Shown here piece after piece: positions 15,865 through 61,265 of a stretch of DNA of 64,000 nucleotides. The stretch is taken from the NCBI RefSeq assembly GCF_000332315.1, contig NZ_KB235933.1, positions 1,057,021-1,121,020 on the forward strand, written 5' to 3'. Position numbers and translations under genes: made by a program. Below the pieces are notes generated by a model. The model did not search any database, was not told where the DNA came from, and saw nothing but the letters and a program-made list of their open reading frames with translations. The DNA is from Prochlorothrix hollandica PCC 9006 = CALU 1027 (GTDB lineage: Bacteria; Cyanobacteriota; Cyanobacteriia; Prochlorotrichales; Prochlorotrichaceae). The stretch's first letter is position 1; each line of letters starts with the position of its first letter.

Positions 15865-16306
15865 GGTTCTTCCTCTTGTCTAGGGGGATTTATGGGGCTG
15901 GGTAGGATGGGATCCGGGCAATCCCCCAGATCCAACTGTGTTGTTCCCCTAGGGTAGCGCTTTCCCGGTTCCTTAGGCTATGGGGTCGCGGTGAAACCGG
16001 GTCATTGCCCCCACCCTGTCTCCACCGATCCCTTCCGTCCCATCTGCACCCTCTGCACCAGGACTGAGTACCTCACAAAATTTGCCAGAACCTCACACCA
16101 CCGGGAGGGTCAGGAAACCTGACCCCTACATCGGCCCAAACCCGGTAGGAGTGGAGAAACCCCGCCCAAGGCAGACTCTTTTGTCAGTCAATCAGGTATC
16201 GGAGCTTGAGCTAATCCCCAGCTTTACCTACCCCCGATCGCTAGGCTCCTGATACCTTAAAGGTGACACTTCGTTGGTCCCTCCTCTGAATGTATGGCTT
16301 GAATCT
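15865..16306. other. Intergenic spacer with palindrome
   Basis: This 440-base divergent spacer lies between the DUF3386 gene (minus) and the DUF262 gene (plus). It holds a palindrome AGGGTCAGGAAACCTGACCCCT at 16106-16127, whose core recurs at 56949-56974. I see no gene and no convincing promoter. Confidence 0.5.
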
Positions 16307-18028
16307 ATGGCTCGGATTAATCTGCTAGATACGCGCACGACTAGTTTCGGTGACTTAATTGGCAATGGCAAGATTTACAGAGTGCCGCCTTTTCAGCGTG
16401 ATTACTCCTGGACTGAAGAAAACTGGGAAGATCTTTGGCAGGATATTCTGGTGCTACACACCACCAATCCTAGTGCTGGTCATTACATGGGGGCGATCGT
16501 TCTCCAAAGCTCTAGGGCTTCAGACAAAGAGTTTACGATTATTGACGGACAGCAACGGCTAGCTACCCTCAGTATTATGGCGATCGCGGTTATCGAAAAG
16601 ATTCAAAAACTAGTCGATCGAGACGAACAAAAGGCAGCTAACCAAGAGCGGCAGAAAATTCTCAATCGCACCTATCTCAGTGACAAGGATCCACGCTCTC
16701 TGCGTTATTCCAGCAAGATCATTTTGAATGAAAATAACAATGACTTCTATCAGAGCAATTTGATCAACCTCAGAAGTCCTTTTAATATTCGATCGCTCTC
16801 AAAATCTAATCAACTACTTTGGCAAGCGTTCCAATATTTTTCGGATTCTTTAGAAGAACTTGAGGATGTTGTTCAAGGTGGTGAAAAATTAGCTGAATTC
16901 TTGACCGATACCATTGCCCAGAGACTACTTTTTATTCAGATTAACGTTGAAGATGAGTTAAATGCTTACACAGTGTTTGAAACCCTGAACGCTAGAGGCA
17001 TAGAACTGAGTTCAACAGATTTACTAAAGAATTACTTATTTTCCCTCTTTCAAGGTCCCGACGATCTACAAGAAGCCCAGAGACAGTGGAGGCGCATTAC
17101 TAATACTGTTCAGATGGAAAGATTCCCAGAATTTCTCCGCTATTACCTCAGTCTCCGACATACTAGGGTCAGGCGAGAAAGGCTATTCAAAATAGTTCGT
17201 GACTCTGTTCAGAATGGCCAACAAGCCTTTGAGTTACTGGATCAACTGGAAAATTACAGTAGTCTTTTTATCGCTCTCGGTAATTCCAATGATGAATTCT
17301 GGCGAGATCTTCCTGCAAACCGACCCTATGTTCGTGAACTTGAACTATTTCGCGTCAAACAGGCTTATCCAACTTTATTTACAGCCTATGAGAGGTTTTC
17401 CCCTGAAGACTTCACTCGCCTCCTCAAACTCGTGGGGGTACTGTGTTTTCGCTATACGATCGTTAGCAGCTTAAATCCTAATGACTTAGAAACACTTTAC
17501 AACAAGGTGGCAATTGCAATCACAACGGGTGAGATAACTAACCCCAGACAGGTTTTTGAACAACTGCGATCGGTCTATGTTTCAGATGAGAAGTTTTCGC
17601 AGGACTTTTCTTTGCTTTCACTGTCTACCAGAGGGCAGAAAAAGAAACTAGTGCGATATATTTTGTCTAAGCTTGAGGCCGATGCACGACTGGAGGTTAA
17701 TGAAGATGGTTTTTCGATCGAACATATCTTGCCTGAATCCCCCAGTCCTGAATGGCGACAACACTTTACTGATAGCCAACTGGAAGAAATGGTGTATCGC
17801 ATTGGCAATTTGACACCGTTAGAACCCCATCTCAATCGCGAAATCGGCAATGGGCGTTATGCCATCAAGCGAGATGTTTACCAGCAGAGTGGCTATGAGT
17901 TAACCAAAAATATAGTGGCTGAGGAATGGACTCCCCATACACTGACTACACGACAGAGGGATTTAGCCCGGAGAGCTACTCATATTTGGCGATCGGATTT
18001 TGCTCCTCATAAATTTCTGCCCGACTAA
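16307..18028 (+). CDS. DUF262/DUF1524 protein (GmrSD-like, possible restriction component)
   Basis: This protein of 573 residues has an N-terminal DUF262 domain (YRVPPFQRDYSWTEENWEDLWQDI, TIIDGQQRLATLSIM, FETLNARGIELSSTDLLKNY) and a C-terminal DUF1524 HNH-like domain (FSIEHILPESPSPEWR, RIGNLTPLEPHLN). The DUF262 part is a ParB-like NTPase and the DUF1524 part a predicted nuclease. The fused form is known from GmrSD-type, modification-dependent restriction enzymes. I prefer the ATG giving MARINLLDT; a TTG 33 bases upstream is possible. It points toward a large restriction-modification gene on the other strand, so a joint defence role is likely but not shown. Composition is moderately AT-rich. 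Confidence 0.85.
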   Translation: MARINLLDTRTTSFGDLIGNGKIYRVPPFQRDYSWTEENWEDLWQDILVLHTTNPSAGHYMGAIVLQSSRASDKEFTIIDGQQRLATLSIMAIAVIEKIQKLVDRDEQKAANQERQKILNRTYLSDKDPRSLRYSSKIILNENNNDFYQSNLINLRSPFNIRSLSKSNQLLWQAFQYFSDSLEELEDVVQGGEKLAEFLTDTIAQRLLFIQINVEDELNAYTVFETLNARGIELSSTDLLKNYLFSLFQGPDDLQEAQRQWRRITNTVQMERFPEFLRYYLSLRHTRVRRERLFKIVRDSVQNGQQAFELLDQLENYSSLFIALGNSNDEFWRDLPANRPYVRELELFRVKQAYPTLFTAYERFSPEDFTRLLKLVGVLCFRYTIVSSLNPNDLETLYNKVAIAITTGEITNPRQVFEQLRSVYVSDEKFSQDFSLLSLSTRGQKKKLVRYILSKLEADARLEVNEDGFSIEHILPESPSPEWRQHFTDSQLEEMVYRIGNLTPLEPHLNREIGNGRYAIKRDVYQQSGYELTKNIVAEEWTPHTLTTRQRDLARRATHIWRSDFAPHKFLPD

Positions 18029-18293
18029 TGGCATAATCTAACAGCAAAGGTTGGGTATCTCCAATATACATTTGGAATTCGTCAGCTAGACGATCGGCGA
18101 TCGCCTCAAACTCATTATGACTCTCTGGAAATGAGGCTGATAAGCTTGGGTAATGATCCGTGAAAGCCTTATACAGACAGGATTTCAATAATGACCCTTT
18201 ATTCAAATGATATCGTTTATTATACAGTCTTCGGCGTGATCCCCAGAGAGTCGATTGATTTATGTCATTTGCCTTCCACGATCTTAATTTCAT
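17976..18293 (-). CDS. Small hypothetical protein between restriction genes
   Basis: This 105-residue protein is not recognised. Its N-terminal half is basic (RSWKAND, GSRRRLYNKRYHLNKG) and its C-terminal half acidic and helical (HNEFEAIADRLADEFQMYIGD, LLLDYAISRAEIYEEQNPIAKYE). The ATG lies inside the last codons of the restriction-modification gene (29-base overlap), and its 3' end overlaps the end of the convergent DUF262 gene by 53 bases. The tight packing suggests a real third member of the cluster. It could be a small accessory, antitoxin-like or control protein, but there is no direct evidence for this. A later TTG start is also possible. Confidence 0.5.
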   Translation of the reverse strand: MKLRSWKANDINQSTLWGSRRRLYNKRYHLNKGSLLKSCLYKAFTDHYPSLSASFPESHNEFEAIADRLADEFQMYIGDTQPLLLDYAISRAEIYEEQNPIAKYE

Positions 18294-21200
18294 CTTCTGT
18301 CAATCCATACAGCTTATAAACGATTTGATCAATCAGGTGATCGCACCACATCAGTTGCATTTTGACCGGCAACAGCGTCTCTAAACTAGCTTGATATTCT
18401 TTCTCTAGCGTTTGCTGTTCTGTTCGCGCTACCGGATCGATCGTGATCTTCTTTTTATTTTTCTTAAGCAGTGCGATCAAGGCATCAAAACTCAGGTGGG
18501 GTTCGCCTGTGTCGTTATCCCTATCTGCATTACCTGTACCTTTTTTGTAATAGTCGCCTAAGTAGTTTTGAATCTTAGATTTGTTGGTGAGAGTGTCGAT
18601 CGGGCAACCGATAAAACGTTCCAGCCATAGCAAAAAGCTTTTGACTTCGGTTTGCTTTTGTTTGTTGAGTTCAATCATTTGCTCGGCTAGATGCGCTAAC
18701 AAATCATGAATCACATCGGCTTCTTCGAGCTGCTGGCTGAGGTGATGAGTGACTTGAGCTAACAGCGGATCAGCGTTGTGATCGAGTTGGAATTGATTGT
18801 AGAGGGTGATCGCGTTTTGGACAGCTTGTTGACGGCGATCTGTTGGGGTGGTAAAAGAGATTTTTCGGATAGGGAATTGACGAATGCTCTCAGGATAAAC
18901 TTCAGTATATGAACCTTGTAAAGTATCAGTCGCAAGGAAACGGGAAAAATGATAAGTCATGAAACATGAGTTTATCAAAGATAAAATGTAATGTAATCTA
19001 TATTGCTCCGCGTACTCATATGCCAACCGATAACCTGCTACTTCAAGCGACTTAATATGATCTGTCCAAATTATTAGATGGATCACGAGATGATCACTGA
19101 AGTAGCCTTCGTCATCGTAAGAACTAATTAGCTTGTTCTCCTCGCCGCTAACTCTACGAATTGCAATTTTAGGCAACTCAAATAGTTCGATGAATCGAGA
19201 TCTATGAAAGTATTCCTGTTTGGCTTCATAATCAAGGAATAAATCGCTCCAATTTATTTCGTAAGGCGTTATGTTAGTCCCTAAAATAAATTTTCTATAT
19301 CCTTGACCATCATGATTTTTAATGACTTCATTCTTTTTAAATTTAATCGGGCTATTAGCACCACTATGAGCCACAATTCCCATGTTGACATGACAAATAG
19401 AGCCAAGAAATATACTATTATTTTGAGTTTTTATTTTGATGAAAATTTCTGCTTCGGTTATGTCAACTCGAAAGGCGAAATTTGAAAACTCGTAAAATGT
19501 GCTTTGAGGTATTATTGAAAAATCATAAAACTCTTTGTCGAACCTTATGATTTTTACAGAATTTGAATCATTTTGAAGCGGTGATACAACATAAATAATT
19601 AGGTGTCTAGAAATCTTCTCAAATACTAAATGTTCTTCAAAATCGACTAATTCAGTCAAGCTGCAATTATCTAAAATAAATTTTCTAATATTAGTTCCAT
19701 ACTTTTCAGTTGAAAATGAGCTTGGAATAATAAAAGATTGACAACCTGTTTTTGCCTTGGTTAAGGATAATGCTCTATATATAAATAGCACGAACAAATC
19801 CCAATGTCCTGATGCAATGTCCGGGTAGATTTTCTCTAGGATTGTTGGGAGAGACTTGTCATATGCAGTTAATTCCCAATTTGAAATATATGGTGGATTT
19901 CCAATGACTACATCAAATCCTGCATTTGCTTTCCAACTAGCGTTTTCTAGGTCGATAAATACTTCTGGAAATTCTAGATCCCAATGAAAAAAGTGTTTCT
20001 TGTCACTGAGTTTTAGGGCATCGTCATAAACGGCGGCATCTGCCTTGTTCATTTTTTTCGGGTTAGCCGAAATTGCATTCGTACCAAACACACGCAAAAA
20101 ATGGTCGGCTCGTTTTAAGCCAAAAAATTTAGAGACGTAGATATCGAGCAATCGCTTAAAGGGTTTGGCAGCGTCATCAAAGGATCGAAATAGGGTTTCG
20201 CTTTGTTCGACTTCGGCAAAAGTGGCATCGCTTAGCACACTCACACCACGCATAATTTCTGCTGCTCTTAGCAAGCCTACAAAGGGTCCTGCTAAGAGGG
20301 TAAACTGTCTGCCTGAGTCCTGCGACATAGCGGCTGCGGCTTCTCTGGCAGTGGTGCCGATCAACGAATTGCCACAGCGCAAATGGTGATCTAAAAAGCT
20401 CAACGGTGCGCCGATCGTAAACGAATGGAGCCACAAACTTACCTTTGCTAGTTCCACCGCCATGGGGTTCAAATCCACGCCATAAATGCAGCGCTTCATC
20501 ACCACCCGTTGTAGCAGTTGAGTCGGTTCCAGGCGATCGGGATTGATGATGATGCCCTGCTGTTCCAGGTTTTGTAAAATGCTCTGGCGCGTTTGCTCCA
20601 GCATCTCCAGCACGGGGTTTTGTTCAGGATACAGCGTCAAAATGCGGATCAGTTCATCGGTCAAATAGTCCACTGCTTCCACTAAAAAATGACCGCTGCC
20701 CATCGCTGGGTCACAGATTTTAATATCCAGTAAGGTACTTTGTGCCTCCCGTTCTAGCCGTTGCAAATCCTTTCGCAATCCGTTCAGGCTTTGGGTGCCC
20801 AGCCGTTTATCTTTCATCTGGGTATGCAGTTGGGCAATGCTTGCCATCAGTTCGCTAAACCGAGTTTGCCGCTGCTCTAAGATGGGTTTCAGCGTGTGGC
20901 TGACGATGTATTTCACAATATAGTCAGGCGTGTAATAGGAGCCTGTGGCTTTGCGTTCGCCCTTGTCATTTTCGAGATGTACTACTGCCTTAGACAAGGG
21001 GTTTGACAAGGGGCTTAAGCCCCTTGCCTCAATGACGACGCGATATTCCAACAAGCCCTCATAAATCGAACCCAGTTGCCGCACGCCCAAAAAGCTATAG
21101 TCGATCGGCTGTCCTTCAAATCGAGCCAGTTGATCCAACACCGGAGCTAGCACCGCATCGGATACCTTAAAGCGAGACAAAAAATGATTGGCGGGATACT

Positions 21201-22311
21201 CAACCTGATTGCTGGGCTGACTGAAATCAAAATGAAACAAACCGCCGTTATAGCGGGGCACTTCCAATCCCCGATCGCCGCGATCGACAATTTGAAACAG
21301 GCTGAGCAGGCGATCGTATAGCCCGGTGGAAGTCTGGCTCAACTTCTTTTGTCGCTTGATGCCCTCAGCCACTTCTTGGGTGATTTTGATCAAGCTGTGA
21401 TCCCGATAATCGCGATCGATGGGTAGCAGATTGCGGGCTTCGGCATAGAGCAAAAACAACAGCTTATAGAGAAAGGACAGCGTTGCTTCATACACCTGCT
21501 CCGGTGTCACCTGCTCTCCCCGGCGGGTGGCATCCGCCACAAGGCCCCCCGCCAAACCGGGAAAGACGCGATCGAACACCAATGCCTTTAGCTCATTGCC
21601 CACGCGCTGAGCATAGGTGGTGCTGCCCTCCCGCACCCGCTCTAAAAAATTTCGCCCCTGGGGGTCTTTGACCAGCGACTCTTGCCGAAAGAACAGCCAA
21701 AAATACTTAAACTGTTCCAAGTCGCCTGCTTCCAACAGTTCCACCAGATCGACAGGGTAAAACTCCGTCGCCGTCGAGGAAGCCTGCCGATAATACAATC
21801 GCCACTCGCGCCCGTTCGTCAGAATCCCCCAATCAACCCCCGTCCCTGTCAGGTAGCTCGCAATCTGAAATGATGGGTTTTCGTTTTTGTAAACATCTCG
21901 CTTGTCATTGGCAGTCACCTTACTGAGCGGGCGTTCCCAATATTTTGCTTCAGCGATCGCCCTCACTCGCGCATAAAAAGCAGACTCATTGTTTTGATGA
22001 TGGTACGCTTCATCGCGATCGGGTTCACTGGTAAACAGGGCATAGTCCGGTCGTTGTGCCCTACCTTTGCCACGAGTCGTCACCTGGGGAATATGGCTAA
22101 AGCCCAAAATATCCAGCGCAGGCTTAATAAAAACCTCTTCTGTTTGCGCTTCACTCAGCGTCGGCAACAGGGTTTGTTTAGACAGATAGAGCTTTTTTAA
22201 CGCCTCAAACCCTGCAGTCACATCCACCTGCCATTCGGGGCATTCTTGAATCCGATGCTCCAGGTAATGCTGCGAAAACAGCGGCTTGTTTGGTTTTTGT
22301 CTATCTGCCAT
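18265..22311 (-). CDS. Eco57I-type single-chain restriction-modification enzyme
   Basis: This 1348-residue protein combines functions in the manner of type IIG enzymes. The N-terminal ~130 residues look like a PD-(D/E)xK nuclease (RPDYALF around residue 90, AEAKYW around 117). An adenine methyltransferase follows: motif I DPAMGSGHFLVEAVDYL (~532), a DLNPMAVELAKVSLW segment and motif IV VIGNPPYISN (~804). The stretch after it (~830-1150) would hold target recognition (TEVYPESIRQFPI at its end), and the C-terminus is helical and Lys-rich. It should cut and methylate the same DNA site. Bases ~18900-20000, covering the recognition part, are much more AT-rich than the rest of the gene, which suggests domain replacement. 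It is clustered with a 105-residue protein and a DUF262 protein. Confidence 0.9.
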   Translation of the reverse strand: MADRQKPNKPLFSQHYLEHRIQECPEWQVDVTAGFEALKKLYLSKQTLLPTLSEAQTEEVFIKPALDILGFSHIPQVTTRGKGRAQRPDYALFTSEPDRDEAYHHQNNESAFYARVRAIAEAKYWERPLSKVTANDKRDVYKNENPSFQIASYLTGTGVDWGILTNGREWRLYYRQASSTATEFYPVDLVELLEAGDLEQFKYFWLFFRQESLVKDPQGRNFLERVREGSTTYAQRVGNELKALVFDRVFPGLAGGLVADATRRGEQVTPEQVYEATLSFLYKLLFLLYAEARNLLPIDRDYRDHSLIKITQEVAEGIKRQKKLSQTSTGLYDRLLSLFQIVDRGDRGLEVPRYNGGLFHFDFSQPSNQVEYPANHFLSRFKVSDAVLAPVLDQLARFEGQPIDYSFLGVRQLGSIYEGLLEYRVVIEARGLSPLSNPLSKAVVHLENDKGERKATGSYYTPDYIVKYIVSHTLKPILEQRQTRFSELMASIAQLHTQMKDKRLGTQSLNGLRKDLQRLEREAQSTLLDIKICDPAMGSGHFLVEAVDYLTDELIRILTLYPEQNPVLEMLEQTRQSILQNLEQQGIIINPDRLEPTQLLQRVVMKRCIYGVDLNPMAVELAKVSLWLHSFTIGAPLSFLDHHLRCGNSLIGTTAREAAAAMSQDSGRQFTLLAGPFVGLLRAAEIMRGVSVLSDATFAEVEQSETLFRSFDDAAKPFKRLLDIYVSKFFGLKRADHFLRVFGTNAISANPKKMNKADAAVYDDALKLSDKKHFFHWDLEFPEVFIDLENASWKANAGFDVVIGNPPYISNWELTAYDKSLPTILEKIYPDIASGHWDLFVLFIYRALSLTKAKTGCQSFIIPSSFSTEKYGTNIRKFILDNCSLTELVDFEEHLVFEKISRHLIIYVVSPLQNDSNSVKIIRFDKEFYDFSIIPQSTFYEFSNFAFRVDITEAEIFIKIKTQNNSIFLGSICHVNMGIVAHSGANSPIKFKKNEVIKNHDGQGYRKFILGTNITPYEINWSDLFLDYEAKQEYFHRSRFIELFELPKIAIRRVSGEENKLISSYDDEGYFSDHLVIHLIIWTDHIKSLEVAGYRLAYEYAEQYRLHYILSLINSCFMTYHFSRFLATDTLQGSYTEVYPESIRQFPIRKISFTTPTDRRQQAVQNAITLYNQFQLDHNADPLLAQVTHHLSQQLEEADVIHDLLAHLAEQMIELNKQKQTEVKSFLLWLERFIGCPIDTLTNKSKIQNYLGDYYKKGTGNADRDNDTGEPHLSFDALIALLKKNKKKITIDPVARTEQQTLEKEYQASLETLLPVKMQLMWCDHLIDQIVYKLYGLTEDEIKIVEGK

Positions 22312-26841: not shown

Positions 26842-27298
26842 TATTTCGGGTTTTTCGTCGCGTAAGTAGTACGAACTACGAACAATGCCCATAAAAATTC
26901 CCCCACCACGGGCAGGGGAATCAGGGGTTGATGGGGACTAACCCTGGGGTGAGGGGTTTATCTCAGGTTAGTCCTAGCTAATGACGATTAATAAAGGCCC
27001 ACCGCAGCGCCGTCTTACCTCAGCCTTAGACCTGGATTAAGACCAGGGGGGTTCAAACAGTATCAGTTTAAAGTTTCCGAGTACAAGCTCGGTTTACTGC
27101 CACCGATCGCCATTAAACCCATATAAAGCGATTTGTAGATCATAAAACAATGTTGGCAGTCACCAACGCCGCAGTCAGGCACCCCCATTGTACCTAGATG
27201 TCTCGAAAATCGCTAGGGGAAGACGCGGCGAATTTTTCCAACCCAGGATCAGGGGGGCACGGGGGCATAAACCCTACGATCGCCCAAGGTTCGGATCA

Positions 27299-27404
27299 GT
27301 GTGGAGGGATTAGTGTGGAGGGATTAGTGTGGAGGGATCAGTGTGGAGGGATCAGTGTGGAGGGATCAGTGTGGAGGGATCAGTGTGGAGGGATTAGTGT
27401 GGAG
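27299..27404. repeat. 14-bp tandem repeat
   Basis: Seven and a half copies of GTGTGGAGGGATYA (Y is C or T) are arranged head to tail. The period is not a multiple of three, so translation through it cycles frames; it is non-coding. Confidence 0.95.
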
Positions 27405-33404: not shown

Positions 33405-33656
33405 CTAAGCTGTTTTTGTGGATTCGGTGTGGTGCCAGATGGTCTGGTTCCCGTGGGTTTCGGCGATGACGAGACCAAACCATTCTAGGCGTTCCAGGTT
33501 TTCGACGATCGCGGCCAGTTTTTTCTTTGTGTTTTTACCGGTGAATTGGGCGGCGATTTGCTCGACGGTCCAGTGGCTGGGGGTGGTGTGCAACAGGTTG
33601 CGAATGGCGGCGAGTTGTTCTTTGGGTTGGCTGGGCCATTTTTGCTGTTCGACAGC
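33405..33656 (-). pseudogene. C-terminal remnant of a larger gene (winged-helix-like tail)
   Basis: The minus strand is open from a TAA at about 33657 to 33405 and encodes QKWPSQPKEQLAAIRNLL, then SHWTVEQIAAQF and KKLAAIVENLERLEWFGLVIAETHGN. No good start codon exists (only an internal TTG). The sequence reads like the small winged-helix tail at the end of a DNA-processing or modification enzyme. The missing N-terminal part would lie where the PIN gene now sits. I treat it as the debris of a replaced gene. The family assignment is only an impression. Confidence 0.45.
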
Positions 33657-33669
33657 TTACTTATTGGAA

Positions 33670-34125
33670 TCACGGCATATGGTCATATCCTTGAAGATCC
33701 CTATCTAAAGACCAGATAAAAATGTGGCAGTTTGGTGCTATTCTGATCATCTTTTCCCATTCTTTGATAATAGATAAATCTCCCATACCTGCCCCCCGCA
33801 TTGCTGACTCAGGAAAGTTACTGAGCCATTCTCCGACCTCCTCCATATTGGGTAGTTGCATCACTTGCCAAGGGGCTTCCCCTTGTATCGCCTTCTGAAC
33901 TTCTGTGATGAAGACTTCAGCAAATCGCCGTCGGTTTCCGCCATCACTGAGGTGAGCAATATGATTACCTGTTTCATAAACAGCAGCCATAGGGAGGAGA
34001 AGATTAGTGTCTGCCTCCAGTAAATCTTTCAAGTGCTGAATCACCTGAGTGCGTTCACTATTCAGATGGGGAATATCAAGCACATTGCAGAATATAGATG
34101 TATCAACGATCGCAACTGCTTTCAT
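33670..34125 (-). CDS. PIN-domain protein, partner of the upstream ATPase
   Basis: This 151-residue predicted ribonuclease of the PIN fold has acidic residues spaced as expected: Asp8 in AIVDTSIFCN, Glu51 in AAVYETGNHIAHL, Asp116 in GAGMGDLSII and Asp141/143 in SLDRDLQGYD. PIN enzymes cut RNA with bound Mg, often as toxins. Its ATG overlaps the TGA stop of the ATPase gene (ATGA), so the two proteins are made in coupled fashion. There is no VapB-like antitoxin next to it; the ATPase takes that place. This makes a two-part ATPase-nuclease system plausible. Confidence 0.8.
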   Translation of the reverse strand: MKAVAIVDTSIFCNVLDIPHLNSERTQVIQHLKDLLEADTNLLLPMAAVYETGNHIAHLSDGGNRRRFAEVFITEVQKAIQGEAPWQVMQLPNMEEVGEWLSNFPESAMRGAGMGDLSIIKEWEKMIRIAPNCHIFIWSLDRDLQGYDHMP

Positions 34126-35432
34126 TCTCCAGGTCCTCCCACTACAGCAAGAGAAGCGAGCCACTCCATCGCTCTCCTCTTTTTCTGCTCTGCTCCAGGA
34201 TGCTGTTTCACAAAACGTTCCAATAGTCCACGAGTCATGAGGTGCCCCACAGAACCCTGAGCGATCAGTTCGGGGTAATCGGGAATATCCTGCAATCTCA
34301 TTAACTGACTGGAGCCATCTTGGGGCCTTCGATAGCAAAATACAGTTTCAGGAATAGCCTCGTCAGGTAGGGCATCGAGCAGGGCAGGATTATGGCTACT
34401 AATTAAAACCCGTAGGTCACGTTTTTTTGCAATATTAGAAATTCTTGCCAATAAATCGGCTGCTCTGCTGGGGTGTACACCGTTATCAATTTCTTCGATG
34501 ACAACCAAGCTTTGCTCTGGCGCGGACAGCATAGCTGCAGCAATCGAAAGCACGCGCAACGTTCCATCTGACAGCATGGAAGCATCATAGGTGGTAGATA
34601 TACCCCCAAACGTTTCAGTCAACTGCAACATAACCTCATCACGGGGGGTTTCGATGAAACTGATATCTTCAATATCTTGCTCAGGTAAACTTTGAATAAA
34701 ATCCAGAACTGACCTTTTAACTTCTGGGTTAAGACATAGGTTATAGACTACACCTGAAAGGTTTTCGCCGTGTTCTTTGAGTGCTTTGTCAACTTTATGC
34801 CCATAGGATCGCATGGCACTAGGTTCAGGCTCAAGGAAGACAATACTACTTAACCATTGAACATATTTTTCAGCCACTTTAGGAATTATTTCTCGGCTTT
34901 TCGTGTTCTCGGGACGAAACCGAATATCACTCAAAAGCTGTGTAAAAATGGCCATGTGGCTGCTGCATACAATGCTGGGCTTCTTGCCACCTCTAGCGAA
35001 ATTATTATAGGTAACAAATACATCACTGCCAGCTCCTTGGGGGGCACTAGTAATCTTGTACAAAGGAACTGTTGAACTGGGACTTGTGATTTTTTCTCTG
35101 GTGACGTGAAGATCTCCATCGTCTCCAAGACTTAAGTCGATCGAGAGATTTTTCCACTCTAGCTCTGTTGTGACACAAGAAATCCCAAAGGTTTTCGAGC
35201 CTCGATAGCCCAGATTCTCTACTCCTCCCCTGAAAATCACCTCGTCTTGCTTATAAAGTCCACCTAAAAAGCTAAGCCGTTCTCCCTCGGCAATCCTTGC
35301 CAGTAAGCGCAAGGCTTCGATCGCATTACTCTTCCCAGAAGCATTAGCTCCAATCAGAACGGTCAACCGCCCCAGTTGTAACCTGCCCGATCGATAGCTC
35401 TTGAAATTTTTTAACTCGATTTGAGTCAGCAC
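34122..35432 (-). CDS. ABC/SMC-like AAA ATPase (OLD-type), partner of PIN nuclease
   Basis: This ATPase has 436 residues. It begins MLTQIELKNFKSYRSGRLQLG, with Walker A GANASGKS at residues 28-35. Later come the ABC signature MLSDGTLRVLSIAAAML, Walker B SLVVIEEIDNGVHPSRA and the switch ISSHNPALLDALPD. The split-head layout with no coiled-coil arms of SMC length matches the AAA_15/AAA_21 group of ATPases used in many anti-phage systems. The GTG start is preceded by GGAG. Directly upstream are two perfect 15-base direct repeats (35461-35490) that look like an operator. It is the first gene of an operon with the PIN gene. Confidence 0.88.
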   Translation of the reverse strand: MLTQIELKNFKSYRSGRLQLGRLTVLIGANASGKSNAIEALRLLARIAEGERLSFLGGLYKQDEVIFRGGVENLGYRGSKTFGISCVTTELEWKNLSIDLSLGDDGDLHVTREKITSPSSTVPLYKITSAPQGAGSDVFVTYNNFARGGKKPSIVCSSHMAIFTQLLSDIRFRPENTKSREIIPKVAEKYVQWLSSIVFLEPEPSAMRSYGHKVDKALKEHGENLSGVVYNLCLNPEVKRSVLDFIQSLPEQDIEDISFIETPRDEVMLQLTETFGGISTTYDASMLSDGTLRVLSIAAAMLSAPEQSLVVIEEIDNGVHPSRAADLLARISNIAKKRDLRVLISSHNPALLDALPDEAIPETVFCYRRPQDGSSQLMRLQDIPDYPELIAQGSVGHLMTRGLLERFVKQHPGAEQKKRRAMEWLASLAVVGGPGE

Positions 35433-35460
35433 CTAATGGACTCCGTTTTGGCCTTAACTA

Positions 35461-35490
35461 AGGGACTATAACGTAAGGGACTATAACGTA
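35461..35490 (-). promoter_or_regulatory. Tandem 15-bp direct repeats before the ATPase-PIN operon
   Basis: AGGGACTATAACGTA occurs twice with no gap, 29 bases before the GTG start. On the minus strand each unit contains TTATAGT, which could serve as a -10 box. A tandem operator or duplicated promoter is the simplest reading. Confidence 0.5.
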
Positions 35491-35603
35491 ATCAGCATAC
35501 TACTGCCCGTCGGGAGTTGCTGTGATGCTGATGCTTTGACGCTGATCGATCGCATCAACACCCGATCGCTAGCCGCCAGCAGTCCCAAGACCTGGGTTGA
35601 TGT

Positions 35604-57129: not shown

Positions 57130-58317
57130 ATGAAGCTTGAGAGTTTACGATTACAAAATTTCAAGGCATTTCGGCAGGTGGAAATCACCAATCTGCCCCA
57201 GTTTTGTGTTTTTGTGGGCCACAACGGAGCGGGAAAAAGCACAATTTTTAGTGTGTTTGAGTTTCTGAAGGAGGCGATGGCCAGCAATGTTAATGCGGCC
57301 TTGGGGCGCTTGGGGGGGAGTCGGGGCTTGGGGGAGGTGCGCAGCCGGAACCAAACGGGGCCGATCGAGATTGAACTCAAGTTTCGCACTAACCCAGATG
57401 CTCCCCTGACGACCTATTTTCTGGCCTTGGATCAAGACGATCGCGGGCGGGCCTATGTGGCGCGGGAGGTGCTGAAGTATCGCCGGGGCAGCAGTGGCCA
57501 ACCGTGGCATTTTTTAGATTTTTCCAGCGGGGCGGGCTATGCCGTCACCAATGAGCTAGATAAAGTGCAGAATGTTAGTGCTTTGCAGCGGGAGGAGCAG
57601 AGCCTGAAAGCTCCGGATATTTTGGCGATTAAGGGGCTGGCTCAGTTTGAGCGTTTCCCGGCGACGGTTGCCCTGGGAAATCTGATTGATAATTGGCATA
57701 TTTCGGATTTTCATATTCAGCGGGCCAGACCGGAGCAGGATGCGGGCTATGCGGAACATCTCTCGCGGGAGGGGGAAAACCTGTCGTTGGTGGTGCAGTA
57801 TTTGTATCAGCAGCATCAGGGGGTGTTTAATCGGGTGCTAGATCAACTGGCGCGGCGGGTGCCGGGAATTGAGCGGGTGGAGCCGAAAACGACGGAGGAG
57901 GGGCGGGTTTTGCTGAAGTTCCAGGATGGATCTTTTGAGGATCCGTTTTTGGCGCGGTATGTGTCCGATGGCACGATCAAGATGTTGGCCTATCTGACGT
58001 TGCTCTATGACCCCAATCCCCATCCCTTGCTCTGTGTGGAGGAGCCGGAGAATCAGCTTTACCCTCAGTTGCTGTGGGAGTTGGCGGAGGAGTTCCGGGC
58101 CTATAGTCAGCGGGGCGGGCAGGTGTTTGTTTCGACCCATTCGCCGGATTTTTTGAATGCGGTGGGGCTAGAGGAAGTGTTTCTGCTGACGAAGCAGGGG
58201 GGCTATACCCAGGTGCGGCGGGCGCAGGATGATTCCCAGGTGCGGGCTTTTATGGAAGCGGGGGATCAGATGGGGTATTTGTGGACGAGTGGGCTGTTGC
58301 CGGGGATGGGGCTATGA
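57130..58317 (+). CDS. ABC/SMC-like AAA ATPase, partner of DUF4276
   Basis: This ATPase has 395 residues. It starts MKLESLRLQNFKAFRQVEI, with Walker A GHNGAGKST at 30-38. The signature region is ARYVSDGTIKMLAYLTLLYDP, Walker B LLCVEEPENQLYPQLL, and the switch VFVSTHSPDFLNAVGLEEVF. It is of the AAA_15/AAA_21 type, close to the ATPases of OLD and PARIS-like systems. The ATG follows GAGGGGAAAACAGG. The stop codon overlaps the start of the DUF4276 gene (ATGA), so both are made in a coupled manner. This is the second ATPase+nuclease-like pair in the window. Confidence 0.9.
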   Translation: MKLESLRLQNFKAFRQVEITNLPQFCVFVGHNGAGKSTIFSVFEFLKEAMASNVNAALGRLGGSRGLGEVRSRNQTGPIEIELKFRTNPDAPLTTYFLALDQDDRGRAYVAREVLKYRRGSSGQPWHFLDFSSGAGYAVTNELDKVQNVSALQREEQSLKAPDILAIKGLAQFERFPATVALGNLIDNWHISDFHIQRARPEQDAGYAEHLSREGENLSLVVQYLYQQHQGVFNRVLDQLARRVPGIERVEPKTTEEGRVLLKFQDGSFEDPFLARYVSDGTIKMLAYLTLLYDPNPHPLLCVEEPENQLYPQLLWELAEEFRAYSQRGGQVFVSTHSPDFLNAVGLEEVFLLTKQGGYTQVRRAQDDSQVRAFMEAGDQMGYLWTSGLLPGMGL

Positions 58318-58946
58318 CGGGGTATGAGGCTGGATTCTTGGTGCAAAACCGAGGACAGCGGCTTTTTCTGGTCTGTTGTGTGGAGGAGCCTTCGGCTAGG
58401 GAGATGTTGCGGGGGGTTTTGCCAAGACTGGGGTTACAAGAGGGGCAAGATTTCCAGGTAATTTTGTTTCAGGGGAAGCAAGACCTGGAGAAACAGCTAG
58501 AGTTGCGGCTGAGGGCTTGGCAGCGTCCTAATTCGGTATTTTTAGTGTTGAGAGATCAGGATTCGGGGGATTGCGCAACTGTGAAGCAGTCTTTGATGTG
58601 GAAGCTAGTGGCTAGTGGCCAAAAGGGGCTGGTGCGAATTGCCTGTCGGGAGTTGGAGAGTTTTTATTTGGGGGATTTGGCGGCGGTGGAGGCTGGGCTG
58701 GGTTTGTCTGGGCTAGCTCAGCAGCAGCAGGGGCGGAAGTTTCGAGAGCCGGATCGTCTGAACAATGCCAAGCAGGAACTGAAGCAATTGACCAAACAGG
58801 GCTATCAGGAGGTGGCGGGATCGCGGGCAATTGCGCCGCTGCTCAATCTGGATCCGCCTGTGAATCGATCGCGGAGTTTTCAGGTTTTGCTGGAGGGGAT
58901 TGCTCAGCTTTTGGCCCTCGACTTGTCCACACTTTTGGAGAATTAA
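58314..58946 (+). CDS. DUF4276 protein, TOPRIM-like putative nuclease
   Basis: This protein has 210 residues from the ATG that overlaps the ATPase stop. DUF4276 proteins are thought to have a TOPRIM-like fold. Here the Glu is in FLVCCVEEPSARE (residues 24-25), and the acidic pair is in FLVLRDQDSGDC (Asp81, Asp83, Asp86), as TOPRIM needs. A second conserved strip is RIACRELESFYLGDLAAVE. The C-terminus is basic (KFREPDRLNNAKQELKQLTKQGYQEVAGSRAIAPLL). The coupled ATPase makes a two-gene system similar in layout to OLD or PARIS. Known PARIS uses DUF4435 as its second gene, so I do not call it PARIS. Confidence 0.82.
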   Translation: MTGYEAGFLVQNRGQRLFLVCCVEEPSAREMLRGVLPRLGLQEGQDFQVILFQGKQDLEKQLELRLRAWQRPNSVFLVLRDQDSGDCATVKQSLMWKLVASGQKGLVRIACRELESFYLGDLAAVEAGLGLSGLAQQQQGRKFREPDRLNNAKQELKQLTKQGYQEVAGSRAIAPLLNLDPPVNRSRSFQVLLEGIAQLLALDLSTLLEN

Positions 58947-59249: not shown

Positions 59250-60560
59250 ATGGAACTGATTTCTCTAGAACTCCAAGGTTTTCGCGGCCTTGCTGACCAA
59301 ACCATTGACCTAGAACCGGAACCCTTTCGATCGGGGGGGCTACAGCCGATCGTCTTCATCGGCACCAACGGCAGCGGTAAATCCAGCCTCCTCAAGGCGA
59401 TCCTGCGGCTGCTTTCCTGGTTCACCCGGCGGCTCAAAAATGCTCGCACCAACGGCCTACCCTTTCAGCCGGAAGATATAGCCCTCGATCGATCCCAGGT
59501 TGCAGCGGCCCTCACCCTGGTGTATCAAGATCAAAGCTATCGCTGGAACGTCAGCAGAAATCGCCCTAAGGCTTTCAAAACCCACAAAGACAGCCGTAAA
59601 ACAGACACTAAAGGCAGTTTCTACACGGAACTGAACCAGCTTGTCGAATCTTTCCACGGTTTAATGGAACAGGACATTCAAACCCCGCTGCCGGTTTTGG
59701 TCCATTATTCCACCGATCGCACTGTTCCCCAGGCCCGCGTTCACCTCCCCAAAAAACGGGACAATCCCATTCCCCTCAATGCCTACGATCGGGCCTTGGA
59801 CGAGGAAGCCACGACCTTCAAAAGCTTTTTTGAGTGGTTTCGCATCCGGGAAGATTACGAGAACCAACGGCGATCGAAGGAAGATCCCCGCTATCAAGAC
59901 CCCCAGCTAGAGGCTGTGCGACGGGCCTGTACGCTGTTGACCGGCCTGACGGATCTCCAGATCCGGCGCGAAACCCCCGTGCGCATGACGGTCACCAAAA
60001 CCATAGACGGACTCCCGCAAATCTTCCGCATTGAACAACTGTCCGATGGTGAAAAAGGATTGCTCGCGATGACAGGGGATATTGCGCGACGGCTGGCGAT
60101 CGCCAACCCCCACCTCAGCGATCCCCTCCAGGGCGAAGGCGTAGTCCTCATTGATGAAATTGAGCTACATTTGCATCCCCAATGGCAAAGCAGCATCATC
60201 GAAAACCTCTGCACCACCTTCCCCAACTGCCAGTTTATCCTCACCACCCACTCCCCCCAGGTCATCACCAACCTCGATTGGGTCTACCTCCTCGAACCCA
60301 CCCCCCAGGGCACCCGCTGCCAACCCATCCGCACCTATGGCAAGGACAGCAACCGCATCCTGGAAGCGATCATGGGTACCCCGGAGCGATCTTCCCAGGT
60401 GAAAGATCACCTGGATCATCTCTTCAACCTCATTGATGATGGAAAACTAACCGAGGCTCAGAAACTCCACTTAGAACTGCTAAATACACTTACAGGCAAC
60501 GAGCCAGAGTTAACTCATGCTGAATGGCTGATTGAGCGTCGTGAGGCTCTAGGACGGTAG
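59250..60560 (+). CDS. ptuA: Septu ATPase PtuA
   Basis: This 436-residue ATPase is of the Septu anti-phage system. Features are MELISLELQGFRGLADQTIDL, Walker A GTNGSGKS (38-45), a middle part with coiled segments (FEWFRIREDYENQRRSKEDPR), the signature EQLSDGEKGLLAMTGDIARRLA, Walker B VVLIDEIELHLHPQWQ and LTTHSPQVITNLD. It is known that PtuA and PtuB assemble and that PtuB cuts DNA on infection; PtuA controls it. Here the partner HNH gene follows after 6 bases. The ATG follows GGAATTAAAAATC, so the site is weak. Confidence 0.9.
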   Translation: MELISLELQGFRGLADQTIDLEPEPFRSGGLQPIVFIGTNGSGKSSLLKAILRLLSWFTRRLKNARTNGLPFQPEDIALDRSQVAAALTLVYQDQSYRWNVSRNRPKAFKTHKDSRKTDTKGSFYTELNQLVESFHGLMEQDIQTPLPVLVHYSTDRTVPQARVHLPKKRDNPIPLNAYDRALDEEATTFKSFFEWFRIREDYENQRRSKEDPRYQDPQLEAVRRACTLLTGLTDLQIRRETPVRMTVTKTIDGLPQIFRIEQLSDGEKGLLAMTGDIARRLAIANPHLSDPLQGEGVVLIDEIELHLHPQWQSSIIENLCTTFPNCQFILTTHSPQVITNLDWVYLLEPTPQGTRCQPIRTYGKDSNRILEAIMGTPERSSQVKDHLDHLFNLIDDGKLTEAQKLHLELLNTLTGNEPELTHAEWLIERREALGR

Positions 60561-60566
60561 ACGAGT

Positions 60567-61265
60567 ATGAAATATATCCAGAAAAATCCAGAGCCAAAAG
60601 AACTCAAGCAATGGCGAGAAGATCAGCTTGCCCAAGGAGTCAACTTTACCTATGAGAATTTCAAAAATCCTGAAAAACGCATCACTCGCCAGTCTCTTCT
60701 GCAAGAACAGGGCTGGATCTGCTGCTACTGTTGCAAACGCATCAGCCTAGAAATCAGTCACCTTGAACACTTTGACCCCCAAAGCAAGAGTGATCCGGTG
60801 CTAACGGTGACCTATAGCAATATGCTGGCTTCCTGTGGCCCATTAGAACGGGATCCCGCAGATAGAAAGAAATCAGTGAAGTGGCCAGAACACTGCGGTT
60901 ATCAACGCGGTCGTGACCATAAACATAACAATGAAACGATACGCAAAAACGCAGCTTTACCGATCGCCCCACATCACGATCCCCAATGCGAAACCTACTT
61001 CACCTATCGCTCCAATGGTGAGATCCAAGCCGTGAAAGACCATCCCCGTGCTGCTGATGCACAAGAGATGATCAAAATCCTCAATCTCAATGACCCTGAC
61101 CTTATTAAAGCCCGTCAACTAATCTTGCGAACGCTCCAGGGGCTGACGGACACAGAAGCTCAGATTCTCTGGCAGCGTAACCAGAACAGAAACCAACAGG
61201 GTGAATTTCGGAGCTTCTGCCCTGCGGCCCTGGACTACCTCCGCCAAAACTTTAACCTGCCCTAG
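60567..61265 (+). CDS. ptuB: Septu HNH nuclease PtuB
   Basis: This 232-residue HNH nuclease pairs with PtuA. The HNH core is HLEHFDPQS (His65, Glu67, His68) with the zinc Cys cluster CCYCCKR just before (residues 52-56), then TYSNMLASCGPLER and a later His-rich part with CGYQRGRDHKHNN. The pattern fits the PtuB/TIGR02646 group, which also occurs with retron Ec78. There is no reverse transcriptase next to it, so Septu is the better name. The C-terminus (QARQLILRTLQ-like helices, FRSFCPAALDYLRQNF) is as in the family. Confidence 0.9.
   Translation: MKYIQKNPEPKELKQWREDQLAQGVNFTYENFKNPEKRITRQSLLQEQGWICCYCCKRISLEISHLEHFDPQSKSDPVLTVTYSNMLASCGPLERDPADRKKSVKWPEHCGYQRGRDHKHNNETIRKNAALPIAPHHDPQCETYFTYRSNGEIQAVKDHPRAADAQEMIKILNLNDPDLIKARQLILRTLQGLTDTEAQILWQRNQNRNQQGEFRSFCPAALDYLRQNFNLP

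Follow-up and report, generated by a model that had tools for sequence, protein, structure and literature searches.

A catalogued ATPase-PIN gene pair (PDC-M07) in Prochlorothrix hollandica as a candidate mobile defence module

PrrC and RloC are single polypeptides in which an ABC-type ATPase is coupled to an RNase, and their nuclease domain is of the HEPN class. PrrC is a tRNA-Lys nuclease genetically linked to type I restriction: the linked restriction enzyme keeps it silent, and a phage anti-restriction factor activates it (PMC2610378). PARIS (AriA + AriB) uses an OLD-type ABC ATPase and a separate small nuclease, is also tied to restriction or anti-restriction, and has as its effector the tRNA-cleaving TOPRIM nuclease AriB (PMC12409363). 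Septu (PtuA + PtuB) likewise has its nuclease in trans, in this case an HNH protein, and reportedly cuts tRNA-Tyr (PMC13096335).

PIN nucleases occur in another set of described systems. VapBC combines a PIN nuclease with the antitoxin VapB. The DefensePredictor systems DS-3 and DS-5 have PIN domains, lack a classical antitoxin and have been validated in phage defence (PMC13092281). In DS-3 a single protein contains a split PIN domain, and DS-5 consists of a PIN protein and a DUF5830/AcrIF4-like protein, with no ATPase. A 2026 survey reports OLD-ABC ATPases with PIN endoRNases near BREX loci and regards them as backup effectors (PMC12839542).

The pair analysed here lies on the minus strand of the window, a 64,000-nt stretch of the Prochlorothrix hollandica genome. 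Its first gene (34122-35432; GTG start at 35432, stop at 34122) encodes an OLD/PtuA-like ABC ATPase of 436 aa, and the second (33670-34125; ATG start at 34125, stop at 33670) encodes a 151-aa PIN-fold protein. The initial annotation had described an overlap of the two genes by ATGA, all four acidic positions of a PIN active site and a PIN gene with no antitoxin neighbour, and each of these descriptions agrees with our results: the overlap is at 34122-34125, the acids are D8, E51, D116 and D141 (assessed over 49 homologues), and we recognised no small ORF resembling VapB next to the PIN gene. It had also called the system unnamed, which is incorrect, as PADLOC-DB lists the pair as candidate PDC-M07 and the 2026 survey also covers OLD-ABC ATPases with PIN endoRNases (PMC12839542).

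The match to the catalogued candidate is close. The ATPase matches PADLOC model PDC-M07A over residues 2-429 of 436 (E 1.9e-192), and the PIN protein matches PDC-M07B (E 6.5e-59) and, among PADLOC models, M07B models only. Both proteins match over nearly their full length, the M07B partner is adjacent on the same strand with the ATGA overlap, and no tested feature separates this pair from PDC-M07. Because both models match, the pair belongs among the phage-defence candidates already catalogued. Our literature search found no paper that names or validates PDC-M07, no experimental report on it, and no phage-protection or toxicity data for it. The pair itself is real and conserved, and a defence role for it, as a member of this catalogued family, is plausible.

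The ATPase has a Pfam AAA_21 match (E 6.5e-28) and a full set of motifs for ATP binding and hydrolysis: a Walker A motif (GANASGKSN), the signature LSDGTLR, EEIDNGVHP and an H-loop (SHNP). Across 50 homologues, these motif columns are invariant or nearly so. Foldseek searches with its structure model (pLDDT 91) returned PtuA, retron PtuA-like proteins, SMC, Rad50 and OLD, and by its modelled fold the ATPase is nearest to the PtuA class of Septu and retrons. We found neither a TOPRIM nor any other nuclease domain within the protein, so what we see is an AAA_21/OLD-type head that has the full motifs but lacks a nuclease of its own, as in OLD-class ATPases that have a nuclease in trans.

Neither a Pfam search (no credible PIN match) nor a profile search of the PDB (no match) assigned the small protein, and the protein A matches that appeared in the PDB were spurious helical ones, which we rejected. 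Its AlphaFold2 model, however, has a pLDDT of 95.5, and the best Foldseek matches are VapC15, FitB and VapC20, with a probability of 1.00 but an E-value of only ~1e-3. Among 49 homologues, E51, D116 and D141 are invariant and D8 is nearly so, and residues 51-56 (ETGNHI) are invariant; the four acids are kept across at least five phyla. The modelled PIN fold and the conserved acidic active-site residues together place the protein in the PIN superfamily and make it a predicted metal-dependent nuclease. Its substrate is probably RNA, going by PIN-family precedent.

Each of the systems introduced above differs from the pair in some respect. The ATPase shares its fold class with Septu (PtuA is a top Foldseek match), but the Septu partner is HNH and here it is PIN. 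The arrangement of PARIS is similar, but instead of the AriB-type TOPRIM effector there is a PIN protein, and the ATPase matches the AriA model at E 1e-26, far weaker than its match to M07A, so it does not belong to the AriA family. Unlike PrrC and RloC, the ATPase and nuclease are encoded by two genes, and the nuclease is PIN. VapBC shares the PIN fold and acidic residues, but here there is no VapB, the partner is a large ATPase, and the PDC-M07B family is marked by a signature of its own, ETGNHIA, and is not matched by Pfam PIN models.

Joint absence of the two families from other genomes had been set beforehand as grounds for discarding the pair as a unit, and the opposite was found. We examined 80 PIN loci from Cyanobacteria, Pseudomonadota, Bacillota, Bacteroidota and Chloroflexota, and in 77 of them an ATPase homologue lies immediately upstream on the same strand. 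A further locus, from Niveibacterium (L031), also has the ATPase gene upstream in the same orientation, separated from the PIN gene by an IS66 transposase. Counting it, 78/80 loci have an ATPase; the two exceptions are a PIN gene at a contig end (L011) and one that lacks its N-terminus (L063). A few of the 77 loci have a split or short ATPase frame (e.g., L026, L029 and L075), which means that some copies are not intact. Close homologues L010 and L012 keep the ATGA overlap; elsewhere the junction is TAATG or a short gap, a degree of adjacency that suggests translational coupling.

The two proteins also co-diverge: over 68 pairs, ATPase and PIN pairwise distances are correlated with a Mantel r of 0.85, which none of 5000 permutations reached. 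The operon is conserved and its members are inherited together. Seen from the ATPase side, about 30 of 36 strong matches in our sample of cyanobacterial genomes adjoin a PIN gene, one of them across a contig break (counted by hand from the ATPase and PIN scan tables), and about five PDC-M07A-grade copies have no adjacent PIN. A related, weaker group of ATPases (bits ~220-240; G157, G123, G143 and others) occurs in genomes that have no PIN gene, and its members therefore probably have another partner.

Distribution is patchy, with PDC-M07B in 35 of the 390 sampled cyanobacterial genomes (28/160 genera). In genomes G314, G265, G230 and G080 the PIN copies are decayed or split, several with internal stops, which suggests that the system has been lost repeatedly. 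The pair is also mobile: ten plasmids carry PDC-M07B, of which four are predicted to be conjugative and three mobilizable, and the smallest plasmids with the pair are 9 kb. A search of 50,697 phage records and one IMG/VR contig gave no match to the pair.

The point of most interest is that the pair is found repeatedly inside restriction operons. On two plasmids, pIFL1_3 of Vibrio campbellii and pAQU1 of Photobacterium damselae, the genes run hsdM-hsdS-ATPase-PIN-hsdR and overlap one another by a few bases. Three cyanobacterial loci (L140, L143 and L145) have hsdM and hsdS upstream of the pair and hsdR directly downstream, and at a fourth (L144) the contig ends soon after the pair. In Niveibacterium the ATPase directly follows hsdM-hsdS; the IS66 transposase splits the ATPase from the PIN gene of this type I restriction-linked copy (L031:5950-10429).

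MmeI-type genes are the second kind of restriction neighbour, lying a few kb downstream of the pair in three cyanobacteria (L015, L016 and L032). In the window, just 13 bp separate the PIN gene from a downstream C-terminal remnant of such a restriction-modification gene (33405-33656, minus strand, 83 codons). The remnant shares 63% identity with the C-terminal end of a 1162-aa MmeI-type ORF that carries MmeI_N, Mtase, hel and TRD domains. Most of the genes immediately around the pair in this genome are not defence genes.

With one set of queries, drawn in part from the test loci themselves, restriction genes were near the pair at 5/19 loci and at 0/17 same-genome controls; in the wider set, genes of these types lay within 10 kb of the pair at only 8/80 loci. 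In a general comparison for defence islands, PADLOC families numbered 159 in 136 neighbouring genes versus 91 in 136 control genes, with single proteins matching many models each, and genes near control loci also matched Cas, reverse-transcriptase and look-alike models. The link between the pair and restriction is real in several lineages, and it is not obligatory, since most homologous loci have no tested restriction gene within 10 kb.

Our preferred reading, which we consider rather likely, is that PDC-M07 is a sensor-effector defence module of two genes that moves horizontally, in which an ATPase-gated PIN RNase would arrest growth upon infection. The OLD/PtuA-type ATPase would form a dimer or higher oligomer, bind the PIN nuclease that the coupled downstream gene encodes, and hold it idle. 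Infection would be sensed as a state of phage DNA or as a phage protein that blocks restriction, and the triggered ATPase would activate or release the nuclease. Active PIN protein would then cut RNA, most likely tRNA or rRNA, and the resulting halt in translation would amount to abortive infection or growth arrest. We infer the complex, the switch from inhibition to activation, the RNA substrate, the trigger and the phage protection by analogy with ATPase-plus-nuclease systems, of which PARIS, Septu and PrrC are the closest working models. This reading would take PDC-M07 from a candidate of untested class to a concrete mechanistic class, a putative ATPase-gated PIN RNase, and the pair's place within type I restriction operons of several lineages offers a specific hypothesis for the trigger, namely inhibited restriction.

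That place suggests a narrower role, in which the pair would serve restriction-modification systems as an accessory, firing once a phage inhibits them, comparable to PrrC with EcoprrI and PARIS with Ocr. We regard this as possible but tentative, and its probability overlaps with that of the preferred reading because it is a special case of it. The hsdM-hsdS-ATPase-PIN-hsdR order on two Vibrionaceae plasmids, the similar cyanobacterial operons, the MmeI-type genes downstream in three cyanobacteria, the window's own MmeI remnant at a distance of 13 bp and the precedent of PrrC (PMC2610378) all speak for it. With tested restriction genes within 10 kb at only 8/80 loci, however, linkage is not obligatory, and the pair may act in trans or the linkage may reflect shared islands. 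One version of this idea would make PDC-M07 the PIN-based equivalent of PrrC and PARIS: a two-gene RNase guard, recruited into type I and MmeI-type restriction loci of unrelated phyla, that fires when a phage disables restriction. We would advance it only with reserve.

A toxin-antitoxin module, with a VapC-like PIN toxin and the ATPase as antitoxin, would serve plasmid or island maintenance and not phage sensing. The closest solved folds of the PIN protein are indeed VapC and FitB, no other antitoxin candidate adjoins its gene, the pair is carried on plasmids down to 9 kb, and the ATPase comes first in translation order, as is usual for antitoxins. However, a 436-aa ATPase with full catalytic motifs is unlike the DNA-binding antitoxins of the VapB type, the repeated hsdS/hsdR embedding points to cooperation with restriction, and about five PDC-M07A-grade cyanobacterial ATPases stand without an adjacent PIN, so we judge such a module unlikely. 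A housekeeping or DNA/RNA-repair role outside defence could draw on the ATPase's similarity to RecF/SMC heads and on an archaeal OLD-family ATPase that works in the cell cycle (PMC12796447), but the pair's scattered distribution, its carriage on plasmids and the decay of its copies in several genomes make such a role very improbable.

Upstream of the ATPase gene lies a perfect tandem repeat of two 15-bp units, AGGGACTATAACGTA, at 35461-35475 and 35476-35490 (2.2 copies over 35459-35491). The initial annotation had reported two perfect copies 29 bases before the start and had treated them as an operator. The copies are exact, but the leader between repeat and GTG (35433-35460, minus strand), which contains a Shine-Dalgarno-like GGAG conserved in homologues, is 28 bp long, and our results do not support an operator role. 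The repeat is absent upstream of the close homologues L010, L006, L004, L013 and L017, in which the GGAG ribosome-binding stretch is kept, and it is a lineage-specific duplication. It was not found elsewhere in the genome, so there is no regulon.

The repeat does exceed shuffled expectation, as do many other, unrelated short tandem duplications in the window. We counted 27 exact tandem duplications of period 8-30 in these 64 kb, mostly of unrelated units, and shuffled windows contained none of period 12 or more. Since relatives lack the repeat and the window holds 27 such duplications, it is best read as one of the genome's many short tandem duplications, and its position beside the pair is probably incidental. 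The minus strand may carry a duplicated -10 box here (TATAGT within TTACGTTATAGTCCC), but a consensus scan gave no promoter there. Elsewhere in the window, an intergenic array of ~7 14-bp units, AGTGTGGAGGGATY, occupies 27298-27394.

Other defence-like genes are present in the window. A HEC-06/Orf5 protein is encoded at 16274-18025 on the plus strand (E 1.8e-227), and adjoining it on the minus strand (18268-22311) is a gene for a type IIG-like restriction/methylase protein with Eco57I and TaqI_C domains. A HEC-01-type ATPase gene at 57130-58943 (plus strand; HEC-01B model, E 8.3e-192) is followed by an overlapping 221-aa ORF, a possible partner. Lastly, a Septu-like pair lies at 59250-61262 on the plus strand, in which PtuA (E 7.6e-135) adjoins PtuB (E 1.9e-59).
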